From positions 18,149 to 82,148 of the IMG/VR virus record IMGVR_UViG_3300037010_001286: 64,000 bases of DNA, one strand, 5' to 3'. The DNA is from a virus. The first letter of the stretch is position 1. Each line of letters opens with the position of its first letter. Below are positions 43,766 through 62,701 of the stretch, piece by piece. The notes beneath the pieces were generated by a model that saw nothing but the letters and a program-made list of their open reading frames with translations, did not search any database and had not been told where the DNA came from. Position numbers and translations under genes: made by a program.

Positions 43766-43774
43766 TATTATCGT
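43766..43774 (-). promoter_or_regulatory. late-type promoter motif, tail tube
   Basis: Minus-strand ACGATAATA followed by AGAATGACATAC, 32 bases before the tail tube ATG. Confidence 0.7.
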
Positions 43775-52575: not shown

Positions 52576-53046
52576 ATGTTACTTGAAATTGTTTCAAAAA
52601 ACCAAATAGTAGACGGTATTTTACTTCCATTTTTTCCTGAAGCTATGGAAATGAATAAAAAGGTAGATCCAAGTTTTGATAGGATTCTATCACAGCTTAA
52701 TGATGCTTATACAGACTTCTTAATTAGTGAAACTCTAGAGGATAGATTTGAAGCTTTTGTTACTTATGGATTCTCATATCTACAGGGATTAGTTTATTTA
52801 GTACATTATCCCGATGATGATAAATTGGAATTGATGGAAGTACGAGCTACATACTTTACTGACTTGTTTATTATGTTTACTAAATTTATTGGAAGACGCC
52901 TAAATGAACAACAAGTAGGTCTTATTGGTAGTGTAATATCTATGGCTTTGGAGCAGTTTGCTATTTCTAAGTTGTCTAAGAGTACTGATGTTATTGAGTA
53001 TAACAATATTCTAAGTAATTTGTTTGCGAAGTTAGAGTCAGTATAA
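52576..53046 (+). CDS. hypothetical protein, 156 aa
   Basis: Unrecognised helical, acidic protein. First gene after the promoter, therefore likely among the earliest products of this operon. Stop overlaps the next start (TAATG). Confidence 0.65.
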   Translation: MLLEIVSKNQIVDGILLPFFPEAMEMNKKVDPSFDRILSQLNDAYTDFLISETLEDRFEAFVTYGFSYLQGLVYLVHYPDDDKLELMEVRATYFTDLFIMFTKFIGRRLNEQQVGLIGSVISMALEQFAISKLSKSTDVIEYNNILSNLFAKLESV

Positions 53047-53285
53047 TGGATAAGGTGCTGAATTGCCAAGAGGCAGTCAGCCTCTTGGAAGACTATTTTT
53101 TAGGGACTACTCAGTCTGTATTATCAGGCAGATATGGTATTTCTGAAAAAGCAGTCTATAATATTCTATATCTTTTAACATACAAAGAATGTACTAAAGA
53201 ATTTGTATATAGATATGGTGGTGTTGCACCTTATCTAATAGAGCTGGCTAAACGTAAACAGCGTGGACTTGGTAGAGTTAAATGA
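53046..53285 (+). CDS. small HTH protein, 79 aa
   Basis: Contains QSVLSGRYGISEKAVYNILYLL, a clear helix-turn-helix, and a basic C-terminus KRKQRGLGRVK. Reminiscent of phage transcription regulators. Overlaps both neighbours (TAATG, ATGA). Target unknown. Confidence 0.65.
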   Translation: MDKVLNCQEAVSLLEDYFLGTTQSVLSGRYGISEKAVYNILYLLTYKECTKEFVYRYGGVAPYLIELAKRKQRGLGRVK

Positions 53286-53578
53286 GAAAAATTGAGCTAC
53301 TTCTATTTGTAAGTAATGTACTTGCTAATCCAAATAATGAGGTATTAGTAGTGTATAATGAAAACAATATAATTACTCATATTTTTATTGCCTCTAACAC
53401 TGGAGATAAACTTCTAAGATTAGAAGGCCCTTTCAAAAATTTAGATGAAGTACTAAATTTTATAAGAAATATTAAAGCAACTCCAAACTTTGATATATAT
53501 CTACAGTTTACTTTTGTAGAGTCTCCTGATAGCATTAAGATTTACAATAGTATTTGTAAGATAAAATACTTTAGTTAA
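53282..53578 (+). CDS. hypothetical protein, 98 aa
   Basis: Unrecognised alpha/beta protein (EVLVVYNENNIITHIFIASN). Coupled to the preceding HTH gene by ATGA. No motif. Confidence 0.6.
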   Translation: MRKIELLLFVSNVLANPNNEVLVVYNENNIITHIFIASNTGDKLLRLEGPFKNLDEVLNFIRNIKATPNFDIYLQFTFVESPDSIKIYNSICKIKYFS

Positions 53579-53599
53579 AAATTTATTTAAAGGTTGAAC

Positions 53600-54604
53600 A
53601 TGTCCCTACTACCTATTGAGACCCCTAACCCACTATTTGGTAAGTATTTATACCCCTCTGCTAAAGCATTGATGGAGCAACAACAAGATATTGCTTGGTT
53701 TGCTCAAGAGATTAAAGTTGAAAATGATATACATGACTATCTACATAATATGTCAAAAGATAGTTATAATTTAGTTACTGTAACTCTTACTAACTTTGTT
53801 GAAATAGAACAAAGTGTAGGAGAAATATGGGATACTATTAGTACTTGGTTTCCACACTCTGAGATTGATGGTGCTTGTAAACAAATAGCTGCTATGGAGA
53901 AGTCTGTACATGCTTTCTTTTATCAAAAGATGTCAGATACTCTTAATATTGATCCTGAGGATACTGCAAAAGTACAACAAGATGTTGCTGCAATCAAAAA
54001 TAAACTTGACTATGTTAAGTCAATTACTAAAAATTTATCAAAAAATAAATTATTATCATTAGCTATGGTATCAATGATAGAACAGGTACTTCTATTTAGT
54101 AACTTTGCTATGTTAAAATCTTTTAAAGCTAACGGTCATAAGTTAATACCTAATACTCTGACTGGTGTTGATTATGTTGTAAATGATGAGGTACTCCACG
54201 GAGTATTTGCGGCTTACTTACATAATACTTATATTGAGGAATATAAAGAACTTCACGGTTATTTTAATCATGATAAACATAATAAAGACCTTAAAGAATT
54301 AACAGAGTCAATTGTATCTTATGAAGATGCTATTATTGATTATACTTTCCAAGCAAACTTGCCTATTAATGATATTACTGCAAGTCAGTTGAAGGCTTTT
54401 ATTCGCTCACGGGCTAATCTAGTTCTAGTTGATTTAGGATGTGAACCTTTATACCAAATTGTGGATAATCCAATTGCTGATTGGTTTTATAAAGGAGCTA
54501 ATTCTATAAAATTACATGATTTCTTTTCGGCAGGTAGTAATCAATATAAAAGAAGCTGGTCTTTATCAGCATTTTCAAGAAAACCATATTTAGAGGTAAA
54601 ATAA
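53600..54604 (+). CDS. nrdB: ribonucleotide reductase small subunit (class I)
   Basis: 334 aa from ATG 53600 (AAAGG upstream; a TTG two codons earlier is less likely). Ferritin-like R2: Glu in VEIEQSV (first ligand), H and radical Tyr in SVHAFFY, MIEQVLLFSNFA (Glu204 equivalent) and NDEVLH (Glu238/His241 equivalents). In the first ligand helix the usual E-x2-H reads K-x2-H (MEKSVH), with Glu one position earlier, so the metal site may be atypical. Overlaps the large subunit start by one base. Confidence 0.9.
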   Translation: MSLLPIETPNPLFGKYLYPSAKALMEQQQDIAWFAQEIKVENDIHDYLHNMSKDSYNLVTVTLTNFVEIEQSVGEIWDTISTWFPHSEIDGACKQIAAMEKSVHAFFYQKMSDTLNIDPEDTAKVQQDVAAIKNKLDYVKSITKNLSKNKLLSLAMVSMIEQVLLFSNFAMLKSFKANGHKLIPNTLTGVDYVVNDEVLHGVFAAYLHNTYIEEYKELHGYFNHDKHNKDLKELTESIVSYEDAIIDYTFQANLPINDITASQLKAFIRSRANLVLVDLGCEPLYQIVDNPIADWFYKGANSIKLHDFFSAGSNQYKRSWSLSAFSRKPYLEVK

Positions 54605-56331
54605 TGAGTAATACAAAATATGAAAGATTATCACATAAAAGAAAACAACTACAAAATGATGGATTAGCACCATCCTGGCTTAGTACTGCTGGTTACCAAT
54701 TGTTAGTAAATCAAAACTACTTAGATACTGCAGAGACCCCAAAAGATATGTATACTAGGATTGCTAAACGTGCAGCAGAACTAACTAAGTTTGAAATTCC
54801 TAAAGACTTTGGCTATGATACATGGTTTGACTGCTTTTTTGATGTAATGTGGAAAGGGTGGTTATCTCCTTCTACTCCTGTACTAACAAATATGGGAAAT
54901 AACCGTGGACATCCTATATCATGTTCGGGGACCTACGTTGGTGACTCTATTGCTTCCTTTTATGAAGCAAGAAAAGAGATGGCACAACTTACTCAACGTG
55001 GTTATGGTACTTCTACTTGCTTAGATCCAATACGCCCAAGAGGTAGTGCAATTTCTAGTGGTGGTACTGCAAATGGTATTATGCAATTTGCTAAAGGTGT
55101 AGTTGCAGATATGGAGGATGTGTCTCAAGGTAATTCTCGTAGAGGCAGCTGTGGTCAATATTTAAACCCTCTACATGATGATTTTGAAGAACTTGCAAAT
55201 CAGATTATTGCTAATGATATGGGATGGAATATTGGTTGGAATATAACTGATGAGTTTGAAGAGTTATTTCAACGAGACTTTGACTTAGCTGATACTATTT
55301 GGTGTAAACTACTTAAAACTAAAGCTACAAAAGGTAAAGGATATTTCTTTTTTGTTGATAAAGTAAATAGACATCGACCCCAAGTCTATATTGATAAAGG
55401 CTTTAAGGTAAGACACTCTAATTTATGTGGAGAAATTACGTTGATGTCAGATGAAGAACACTCATTTACTTGTGTATTATCTTCTGTAAATATTGCAAAC
55501 TATGATGAGTGGAGAGATACAAAGTTATTTCAAATAAGTACTATTTTCCTTGATGCTATTATTGAGGATATGCTGATTAAGGCCAAACAAGAAAAAGGAT
55601 TTGAGCGTATTGTTGCCTTTACTGAGAAGTCAAGAGCACAAGGACTTGGTGTATTAGGTTTATCTACTTATTACCAAAAGAAATCATGGGCATTTGGTGA
55701 TTTTAGTTCTATTCAATTTAATCAGATGTTTTTTAAGGAAATGAATAAGGAAACTCTTAAAGCTTCTAAGATGTTAGCTAAAGAACTTGGAGAACCTGAG
55801 TGGATGGTTGGATATGGTGAACGTTGTTCTCATCGTATAGCTCTACCTCCTACTAAATCTACCTCTATTATTCAAGGTGGGGTTAGTGAAGGTATTCAAC
55901 CTGTATATGCTAATGTATTTGAGCAAGATACTGCTGGTGGCACTGTATATCGTATTAATCCAGTTCTTTTGGATATTATGAAAGAACGTGATATGTATAC
56001 TGAGGAAGTTATGAGACGTATTGCTGAGGACCAGGGTTCGGTACAAGGAGAAGATTGGCTTACAGACCATGAAAAAGCTGTATTCAGAACTGCTTTTGAA
56101 GTATCTCAAGAGTCTATCCTTTTAATGGCTGCTCATAGACAGCGGGAAGTAGACCAAGGACAGTCTGTTAATCTCTTCTTTACTGCTGACGAGACTGAGG
56201 AAGAAATAGCAAGAATCCATGATATTGCTTTTAAAGACCCTTATATTCATAGTTTATACTATCTACAATCTCAGAATAAAGCTATGAAACATAAGATTGA
56301 TAAAGATGAGTGTTTGTCCTGCCATTCTTGA
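54604..56331 (+). CDS. nrdA: ribonucleotide reductase large subunit (class I)
   Basis: 575 aa, lacking the N-terminal ATP-cone. Active-site residues: HPISCSG near 107 (Cys225 equivalent), SNLCGEI near 275 (thiyl Cys439 and Glu441 equivalents), FTCVLSSVN near 290 (Cys462 equivalent), SLYYLQS (radical-transfer Tyr pair) and the C-terminal redox CLSC. Loss of the cone implies no dATP activity inhibition, a common phage feature. Pairs with the adjacent small subunit. Confidence 0.93.
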   Translation: MSNTKYERLSHKRKQLQNDGLAPSWLSTAGYQLLVNQNYLDTAETPKDMYTRIAKRAAELTKFEIPKDFGYDTWFDCFFDVMWKGWLSPSTPVLTNMGNNRGHPISCSGTYVGDSIASFYEARKEMAQLTQRGYGTSTCLDPIRPRGSAISSGGTANGIMQFAKGVVADMEDVSQGNSRRGSCGQYLNPLHDDFEELANQIIANDMGWNIGWNITDEFEELFQRDFDLADTIWCKLLKTKATKGKGYFFFVDKVNRHRPQVYIDKGFKVRHSNLCGEITLMSDEEHSFTCVLSSVNIANYDEWRDTKLFQISTIFLDAIIEDMLIKAKQEKGFERIVAFTEKSRAQGLGVLGLSTYYQKKSWAFGDFSSIQFNQMFFKEMNKETLKASKMLAKELGEPEWMVGYGERCSHRIALPPTKSTSIIQGGVSEGIQPVYANVFEQDTAGGTVYRINPVLLDIMKERDMYTEEVMRRIAEDQGSVQGEDWLTDHEKAVFRTAFEVSQESILLMAAHRQREVDQGQSVNLFFTADETEEEIARIHDIAFKDPYIHSLYYLQSQNKAMKHKIDKDECLSCHS

Positions 56332-56332
56332 A

Positions 56333-56938
56333 ATGAATTATCTCTTAATTTATCAATCTTTAATAAAAAGTAGGGTTACTAATCCTACTTCCTCCTCTTA
56401 CTATGAGAAACATCATATTATTCCAAAATCTCACGGGGGTTTAAACTCCCCCGATAATATTGTTAAACTCACTGCAAGAGAGCATTACTTAGCTCATTGG
56501 TTACTGACTAAAATTTATCCTAACTGTCCTAAAATGTTGAGTGCATTTTCTTTAATGGCGGGGCAATTAAGCCCAACTAGTCGTCGTAATTTTACTGCAT
56601 CACAATATGAACGATGTAAACTAGCACATTCAAAAGCTACAAAGATTAGACGTGCTAATGGGTTTAATCCAATGAATAGTCCTAAGGCTAGAAAGAAAAT
56701 TAGTGATTGGATGAAAGTTAATAATCCCTCTACTAAAAATCCTCATAAAATAAATACAGCACAACCAGTAGATGTTTATTTCTTAGATGGTACTATAAAA
56801 TCATATAGATATAAATTAGAAGCCTCAAAGGACTTAAACGTTCCTTACTGGTCTATAAAGAACTCTTCAAGAAAGGGTATTGGTATTCCAAAATACAATA
56901 TATCTAAAGTTATAGAGGTACCAAAAACTAAAGGTTAA
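56333..56938 (+). CDS. HNH homing endonuclease
   Basis: 201 aa from ATG 56333 (the frame also opens inside nrdA, but MNYLLIYQSLI is the family start). YEKHHIIPKSHGG and NIVKLTAREHYLAHWLL form the HNH fold, and the C-terminus (PVDVYFLDG, SRKGIGIP) resembles NUMOD-type DNA-binding modules. It begins one base after the nrdA stop without a good SD, as expected for a free-standing selfish gene inserted behind a conserved reductase gene. Confidence 0.85.
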   Translation: MNYLLIYQSLIKSRVTNPTSSSYYEKHHIIPKSHGGLNSPDNIVKLTAREHYLAHWLLTKIYPNCPKMLSAFSLMAGQLSPTSRRNFTASQYERCKLAHSKATKIRRANGFNPMNSPKARKKISDWMKVNNPSTKNPHKINTAQPVDVYFLDGTIKSYRYKLEASKDLNVPYWSIKNSSRKGIGIPKYNISKVIEVPKTKG

Positions 56939-61422: not shown

Positions 61423-61662
61423 ATGAAAAATGATAAGAAATCTTATCCAAAATTGGTTATGACCTCAAAGTTATCTTGTGATGTTTTTATAGATACAGTA
61501 AGGTGTGCTACTATTACTGTTAATGAAGATGGATTACATCCTCAACTTGATATAACATTTGTAGGTAGTTTCAATGACTTTGAGCTTCTACGTTTTATGA
61601 TTGAAGAAGCTTATTCAGAACTTTATAAATCAGCTACCAATAAGCTTGATTTAGATTATTAA
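61423..61662 (+). CDS. hypothetical protein, 79 aa
   Basis: Unrecognised alpha/beta protein (CDVFIDTVRCATITVNEDGL ...). Follows the NUDIX gene closely without a strong SD. Followed by hairpin and gene-free DNA. Confidence 0.55.
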   Translation: MKNDKKSYPKLVMTSKLSCDVFIDTVRCATITVNEDGLHPQLDITFVGSFNDFELLRFMIEEAYSELYKSATNKLDLDY

Positions 61663-61675
61663 TAATACTTTTAAT

Positions 61676-61695
61676 AATACTGTGATAGCAGTATT
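61676..61695 (+). terminator. hairpin after 61662 gene
   Basis: AATACTG-6-CAGTATT, a perfect 7-bp stem 13 bases after the stop, followed by TTATATCT. Probably ends or attenuates the nucleotide-metabolism transcript. Confidence 0.5.
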
Positions 61696-61747
61696 TATAT
61701 CTAAAATGAAGTGTTTTTAGTATAAAAAACTAAGATCGCAATATTTT

Positions 61748-61756
61748 ACGATAATT
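61748..61756 (+). promoter_or_regulatory. late-type promoter motif before gene-free region
   Basis: TTTTACGATAATTGG on the plus strand. No gene starts within 500 bases downstream with a usable SD, so it would produce a non-coding transcript or a very long leader. Confidence 0.5.
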
Positions 61757-62250
61757 GGTACAGTCCATGTGGGACTGCAGACCAAACATGAATTTACCTT
61801 TAAGAGCTTATCTGAAGGTATTTTCCTGGTAGGTGCTTTCTTGTATGAATATCTTATTCAGCCTCTGAAGTCGTTTAAGGGGTTGATAGGGTATTTATTC
61901 GACAGTTTAGAAACGAACTATAGTTATGTATCTGAGCCTTTTAAGGCTGTGTAGGGTACCATGAAGATAACTAGCTGATTACGATAAGCTTATCTTCCTA
62001 AGACTTATCGAAGCACAAATATTTACCTGAAATCTTGGCATAAAGAATTTGGAAGTATAGTTTAGTAACAAATGGAGCTACTATAAATCACAAGCTCAAT
62101 TCCATCAAAGTACCTATTAATCATGTTACCCCTGAGTATTTGGGTATAACATGAAATCTTTGATGGCTATAAAGAAACTTACTAAGTAGTGTAAAACAGT
62201 GATTCCGACTTTATGGGTCATTCTATTATGGGGCAGTACCATAAGTTTCT
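61757..62250 (+). ncRNA. candidate structured non-coding RNA
   Basis: Gene-free segment rich in perfect inverted repeats: CAGTCC/GGACTG (61761-61777), AGCCT/AGGCT (61935-61948), GAAGATAA/TTATCTTC (61963-61997), GAGCT/AGCTC (62075-62097), a three-tier stem CCATCAAAG/CTTTGATGG with inner TCATGTTA/TAACATGA and ACCC/GGGT (62102-62166), and TTATGG/CCATAA (62226-62244). GGTAC at 61757 can pair with GTACC at 61956. One 61-codon GTG frame (61769-61954) lacks an SD. No tRNA, intron core or known RNA signature was recognised. The whole gap is 61663-62323. Confidence 0.5.
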
Positions 62251-62323
62251 ACCATCTTTCCTAATCCTTCAGCAAACTCTTATATTTTTTCTTATATACT
62301 TTCCTAAATACAAAGGAGAGTCT

Positions 62324-62701
62324 ATGGCACATAATAAAGATCTAGCGGATAAACAACGTGTTTCAAAGTTAGACAGAGAAATTATTGATAAACTTCATAT
62401 CCTACGTGAGCTTATTGAGGCTAATACAAAGCATCTTATGAGTCTTATGAAGAATAATGTCTCTACAATGGAGAAATTATCTACAGAAGAGTTTACCAAA
62501 ACAATTCAAACAAATTATAAAGTTTGGATTGAGAATGAAAAGCTACTTCAAAAACTTTGGAAATTTAGTGGTGATGAGGGGTATATCCGAACCTGGTATT
62601 TTCCAGCTTGTTCTTGTCCTAAAATGGACAATGATGATGCTTGGCCGCATGGCCCTTATATTAAAAGTAAATCTTGTATAATTCACGGTTGGGAGGAATA
62701 A
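62324..62701 (+). CDS. hypothetical protein, 125 aa
   Basis: Unrecognised. ATG 62324 with AAAGGAGAG is preferred over an open frame from 62213. Helical N-terminal half (KLDREIIDKLHILRELIEAN), then a C-terminal segment with Cys/His (FPACSCPKMDN ... CIIHGW) resembling a metal site. Confidence 0.65.
   Translation: MAHNKDLADKQRVSKLDREIIDKLHILRELIEANTKHLMSLMKNNVSTMEKLSTEEFTKTIQTNYKVWIENEKLLQKLWKFSGDEGYIRTWYFPACSCPKMDNDDAWPHGPYIKSKSCIIHGWEE

Follow-up and report, generated by a model that had tools for sequence, protein, structure and literature searches.

In this work, a structured RNA was located, with virtual certainty, on the plus strand of a gene-free segment (61663-62323) of a 64,000-nucleotide stretch of viral DNA, henceforth the window, which corresponds to the final 64 kb of the 82,148-base IMG/VR record IMGVR_UViG_3300037010_001286 (G000). 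This RNA very likely constitutes a stand-alone gene and not a leader, and it is probably a noncoding RNA gene of about 0.5 kb on the plus strand that, together with one other known member, makes up a new family of large structured phage RNAs. An earlier note on the segment had offered two options, a structured RNA of about 0.5 kb or a cis-acting DNA site; the former is supported by a homologue in a second phage and by 17 two-sided base changes that preserve pairing.

The gene set of the window is that of a tailed phage (PolA, DnaB-like helicase, primase, SbcCD, NrdA/B, ThyX and ATP-dependent ligase). No nucleotide-level match to the window was present among the phage collection searched, and the sole related phage found, IMGVR_UViG_3300042874_000086 (IMG/VR, 89,672 bases; hereafter G001), was reached via a search with NrdA; a PolA search of IMG/VR returned G001 and two weak contigs. 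Two blocks of the segment matched G001, at window positions 61992-62101 (80% identity, E = 5e-23) and 61855-61918 (81% identity), in the same order and orientation and separated by 73 bases in the window and 35 in G001. The homologous RNA lies at G001:C1:75478-75686, on the minus strand, and the conserved RNA core of the window spans 61855-62101 on the plus strand, with 247 alignment columns. Its 61 pairs fall into nine helices as counted and include three or four pseudoknots. A protein-coding core was rejected, given that all six frames contain at least two stops in each of the two phages.

The helices of this 247-column alignment were derived with RNAalifold and with a mechanical search that retained stems common to the two sequences, and the combined structure comprises Pa, Pb, Pc, Pi, Ph, Pd, Pe and Pf (nine as counted). 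Between the window and G001, 17 of the 61 pairs have changed on both sides yet still pair and 3 have changed on one side, with standard pairs in 120 of 122 cells (98.4%). Covariation in relatives, which the earlier note had proposed as a check, was thus examined in one homologue; the 17 compensatory pairs found there were matched by none of 500 shuffles, and sliding the partners by 1-3 columns left only 0-1. Because the helices had been chosen on the same data, the helix search was repeated on randomised alignments of the two ungapped blocks, with 400 runs for each of three nulls, none of which reached the observed score. The helices supported by two-sided changes include some with conserved or alternating G-U pairs, which can form only on the plus strand. 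Seven cells hold a G-U pair on the plus strand that would be A-C on the other strand; these cells, along with the direction of the promoter and of the transfer RNA (tRNA) described below, therefore set the strand as plus.

With regard to the individual helices, all on the plus strand, crossings occur between Pb and both Pa and Pc, between Pf and Pe, and between Pd and Pc. Hairpin Pa (9 bp, 61858-61866:61878-61886) carries one two-sided and two one-sided changes, all of them pairing, and its loop forms a pseudoknot through Pb (6 bp, 61871-61876:61911-61916; UCGUUU:AAACGA in the window, UCGAUU:AAUCGA in G001). The central domain is closed by the long-range helix Pc (11 positions, 61889-61899:62018-62028), with three two-sided changes, two U.U mismatches in the window and 11 of 11 positions paired in G001. 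Pi (5 bp, 61921-61925:61969-61973), in which four of the five pairs have changed on both sides, carries a 38-nt insertion relative to G001. Hairpin Ph (61974-62014) combines six two-sided stem changes with an unchanged loop, UCUUCC, and the conservation of this loop would be explained in our model by Pd, an invariant pseudoknot or kissing contact between CUUCC in the loop (61994-61998) and GGAAG (62051-62055). The 3' part folds as an H-type pseudoknot of Pe (62056-62061:62080-62085), with two two-sided changes (UAUAGU:ACUAUA in the window, UACUGU:ACAGUA in G001), and Pf (62075-62079:62093-62097), which is invariant between the two phages. Since Pd and Pf lack variation, both are proposed as candidate helices. 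Upstream of the core, AAGAGCTT (window 61802-61809) is shared by the two phages; its potential pairing with AAGCTC (62092-62097) would be an alternative to Pf and a possible switch or closing helix.

The genomic setting bears on whether the RNA belongs to a neighbouring gene. Window positions 22-60506 are collinear with 73.2-7.0 kb of G001, in inverse orientation, and the RNA lies outside this collinear block in both phages, beyond opposite ends and with different neighbours: in the window it follows the ligase, and in G001 it precedes the gene of a UvsW-like helicase by 2.3 kb. The window genes flanking the RNA, including the gene at 62324, have no significant homologue in G001, and IMG/VR protein searches with the genes neighbouring the RNA yielded no match. 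About 30 bases 3' of the core, G001 encodes a tRNA-Arg(CCT), the only tRNA of its 89.7-kb record (all other parts were checked), and the gene 3' of this tRNA encodes 127 aa, with a homologue in G000 at record position 16.3 kb; no RNA copy was found beside the latter in a search with covariance model R1. The non-syntenic places and different neighbours therefore indicate that the RNA has been kept as a unit of its own, and its conservation apart from its neighbours argues against a leader of one gene. Gaps near the record end of G001 were also considered as candidate sites of the homologous RNA and rejected as repeat-rich and not homologous.

Several further observations concern the two genomes. 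G000 holds a cluster of three tRNAs (tRNA-Met, tRNA-Arg(TCT) and tRNA-Leu) at L139 14543-15619 (record 14.5-15.6 kb), some 18 kb from the other record end and adjoining the homologue of the G001 127-aa gene. Near the record end of G001, L004 16282-17050 contains degenerate tandem repeats (AACTTTAAAGATTCCC / CTAACGGTAACTTTTAAG), and repeated GTTCCATATGGAAC palindromes lie nearby. NrdA of G001 (L004 7138-9906) is 922 aa long, about 345 aa of which form an in-frame insertion resembling an intein, and the PolA match of its polA (G001:C1:65332-67465) falls into three pieces separated by insertions of about 1 kb (inteins or introns); window nrdA (54604-56331) is free of the insertion and window polA is uninterrupted. 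A free-standing HNH homing endonuclease gene directly follows nrdA in the window (56306-56938), and a different HNH-like open reading frame (ORF) occupies the same place in G001.

Upstream of the core, a promoter-like motif, TACGATAATT, is located at 61747-61756 on the plus strand. The earlier note had put a late-type promoter, ACGATAATT, at the start of the segment; the motif is real, but it lies at 61748-61756, 85 bases inside. The promoter part of that claim is plausible, as ACGATAAT recurs before other genes, and specifically, in each of the two phages, before the major tail protein gene, whose start lies 34-37 bases downstream of the motif; judged from its sequence context, the ACGATAAT motif is a plausible candidate for a phage-specific promoter. 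Its sites, about 25-40 bases before start codons led by a Shine-Dalgarno (SD) sequence in both phages, were recorded at 43768 (minus strand, major tail gene), 49626 (plus) and 61748 (plus) in the window, and at L141:4049 (G001 major tail gene), L141:17973, L142:14250 (minus), L004:2141 and L004:14617 in the relative. ACGATAA occurs 13 times in the window, with 5.3 expected. The G001 RNA is preceded by a TTGACT-N17-TATAAT promoter (11 of 12 positions). The 5' part of the RNA (61757-61854, plus strand), which opens with the hairpin GGTACAGTCCATGTGGGACTGCAGACC, is poorly conserved, with 98 nt here and about 370 nt in G001; similarity to G001 begins at 61855, apart from a weaker short match near 61802, and the upstream sequence and length differ.

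Directly 3' of the core, a three-tier hairpin (62102-62166, plus strand) was found as the earlier note had described it, and G001 has a shorter hairpin in the same place. Beyond it, at 62173-62254 on the plus strand, a tentative degenerate tRNA-like element takes the place of the G001 tRNA-Arg(CCT). This element has a 7-bp acceptor, an adjoining T-like arm of 5 bp and 7 nt, an A-CCA end and a tRNA-like length; its T-loop, GGCAGTA, is non-canonical, and the pattern was recognised after the fact. Only two such patterns, this one included, exist across the two strands of the 64 kb, shuffling 62102-62323 produced the pattern in 6 of 5000 cases, and the four-armed fold reaches -15.7 kcal/mol, compared to a minimum free energy (MFE) of -16.6 kcal/mol. 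The element was not called as a tRNA by ARAGORN or by the Rfam tRNA model, and we give roughly equal chances for and against its being a degenerate tRNA or a tRNA mimic.

The segment as a whole is bounded by a 79-aa ORF that ends at 61662 and by the SD-led gene at 62324. In line with its initial description as gene-free, it contains a stretch (61663-62212) that exceeds in length every other part of the window in which ORFs of 62 aa or more are absent, and no SD-led frame is present; the largest frame in that stretch, a GTG-start 61-aa ORF at 61769-61954, lacks an SD. The perfect inverted repeats reported for the segment are also present, with six listed, one of them by eye: 62102-62110/62158-62166, 62121-62128/62147-62154, 62173-62181/62242-62250, 61963-61970/61990-61997, a palindrome at 61983-61994, and the perfect 8-bp hairpin AATACTGTGATAGCAGTATT (61676-61695, plus strand), seen by eye in the sequence and in the MFE fold. 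This last hairpin, which lies after the 79-aa ORF and ahead of the promoter-like motif, has no T-run and was not called as a terminator; it probably marks the end of the upstream transcript, outside the conserved RNA. When the folding energy was compared with dinucleotide shuffles, it fell below the shuffled range, with an MFE of -171.6 versus -142.9 +/- 7.1 kcal/mol (z = -4.0) on the plus strand and z = -4.75 on the minus strand. The energy gain over shuffles was the largest among 47 sampled 661-nt stretches (46 others) of the plus strand of the window. A close second, about 31 kcal/mol below shuffles, was that of 52881-53541, in an area (52576 to 53594) where short genes alternate with gaps. 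By part, z was -4.6 for 61757-62254 and -4.3 for the hairpins at 61663-61756, outside the conserved RNA.

As to its mode of action, the RNA would be transcribed during infection from the ACGATAAT motif at 61747-61756, starting near 61760 and extending to about 62254, and its 3' end could be released by processing at the tRNA in G001 or at the tRNA-like remnant in the window. The folded RNA itself would then most likely be the product, perhaps a compact particle serving as a stable RNA scaffold or assembly. GOLLD and ROOL, whose function is unknown, are phage RNAs that lie close to tRNAs and build cages from RNA alone (PMC12286853), and a scaffold function of their kind is a possibility that we regard with some doubt. 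It is rather unlikely, although conceivable, that the two phages hold the first members of a distinct ornate RNA class, unrelated to GOLLD and ROOL in sequence, which would fold through pseudoknots into a tertiary or homo-oligomeric particle with a 3' end set by the attached tRNA or mimic.

Several points weigh against our interpretation. Only two sequences are available, so that every two-sided change amounts to a single comparison, and the alignment of the variable middle (Pi and the 5' side of Ph) depends on MAFFT. No terminator was found, the RNA is known here from DNA sequence alone, and the scaffold function is suggested by analogy alone. Furthermore, the nested folding energy of the conserved core by itself is ordinary (z = -0.75 in the window and -1.3 in G001). 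It is chiefly the flanking parts that give rise to the energy signal; the energy criterion alone is therefore insufficient, and it is covariation that proves the structure.

Among the alternatives, a long cis-regulatory leader (a riboswitch-like 5' untranslated region) of the gene at 62324 would fit the location of the segment directly upstream of this same-strand gene, which has a good SD and is not separated from the RNA by a terminator. However, a leader is expected to travel with its gene, and the 62324 gene has no significant homologue in G001, where the RNA is followed by the tRNA and an unrelated gene, so this explanation is very unlikely. Similar doubts surround a role in cis in the maturation or turnover of tRNA, as a structured leader or a ribozyme processing the attached tRNA. 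The RNA adjoins the only tRNA of G001 and the tRNA-like element of the window, and phage theta ribozymes beside tRNAs provide a precedent (PMC10879173); yet no Rfam ribozyme matched in either phage, and the window keeps the core although its tRNA has degenerated, so that the RNA seemingly does not exist for the sake of the tRNA. We consider this function most improbable.

The many inverted repeats and the accessory region near the record end would also suit a cis-acting DNA site, such as a replication origin or a packaging or recombination site. Against this stand the 17 compensatory changes, many of them in helices that are pseudoknotted or long-range and enclose up to about 118 nt, the G-U pairs kept on the plus strand, a pattern of single-stranded RNA folding, and the promoter-like motif ahead of the RNA in both phages; the chance of a DNA site is accordingly slim. 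A decayed mobile intron, or a mobile RNA element of another kind, would be compatible with the movement of the RNA relative to its neighbours, the HNH endonuclease at 56306-56938 and the large insertions in nrdA and polA of G001, but no group I or II intron model matched, no gene is interrupted in either phage, and neither an endonuclease nor a reverse transcriptase is attached to the RNA, which leaves this origin hardly credible.

Searches for further members returned none. Rfam 15 gave no match at the gathering threshold in the window, those with E <= 10 being at chance level, and in an Rfam scan of the G001 RNA stretch only the adjacent tRNA matched. Covariance model R1 recovered only the two members in the sequences searched and none in two unrelated bacterial genomes. 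The GOLLD model RF02032 (416 positions) found nothing at E <= 10 in G000 or G001, in a search run without a true GOLLD as a positive control, GOLLD was likewise absent from the local Rfam scans at that cutoff, and the ROOL model RF03087 (574 positions) found nothing in either phage or in control genomes, also without a true ROOL as a positive control. Distant blastn searches of phages, for which the 1-kb stretch, the core and the RNA of G001 served as queries, gave no true match (one to a Morganella phage was rejected, its flanks being dissimilar), and a plasmid search gave no homologue. With regard to pattern searches of IMG/VR, GGCATAAAGAATNNGGAAGTA matched G001 only, TTTAGTAAYAAATGGAGCT matched G001 and a tail-sheath gene but no further member, and TTGGCATAAAGAATT matched at least 120 stretches, with no conserved flanks among the matches listed; a pattern search of GTDB gave three matches without flanking similarity.

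If our reading is true, a third family beside GOLLD and ROOL, unrelated in sequence, would be found in the same circumstances (a phage, an adjoining tRNA, and a conserved 3' with a variable 5' region), which would point to a convergent role in infection. The replacement of the tRNA by a degenerate tRNA-like end also makes it possible to ask whether the tRNA serves to form the 3' end and not in translation, and the small conserved core of 247 nt would be convenient for probing and structure work.

Among known systems, transfer-messenger RNA (tmRNA) shares with this RNA several pseudoknots and a tRNA-like end. The tRNA-like domain of tmRNA is built from both ends of the molecule; in contrast, the G001 RNA is followed by a complete, separate tRNA, and neither ARAGORN nor Rfam called a tmRNA in the window or in G001. 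The theta ribozymes of gut phages, which are tRNA-associated and hepatitis delta virus (HDV)-like, are likewise pseudoknotted phage RNAs beside a tRNA, but they are small, lie 3' of the tRNA and cleave at its 3' end (PMC10879173), whereas this RNA is large and lies 5' of the tRNA. By analogy at most, it may work like GOLLD or ROOL, and it appears to be a member of neither. It resembles ROOL in its length (ROOL env-120 has 659 nt), in being phage-encoded, in its proximity to tRNA islands and in its several pseudoknots (PMC12286853), and differs in matching no ROOL model. From GOLLD it differs in the lack of a model match, in its size (about 0.5-0.6 kb, GOLLD often exceeding 0.8 kb) and in that the tRNA follows the RNA, GOLLD tRNAs being located near the RNA or in a linker. 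In GOLLD the 3' region is conserved and the 5' region less so, and both pseudoknots and kissing loops occur (PMC12286853); like GOLLD, the RNA described here is encoded by phages with replication and structural genes, has a tRNA-Arg directly 3' in G001, and combines a conserved 3' region and a variable 5' region with pseudoknots.
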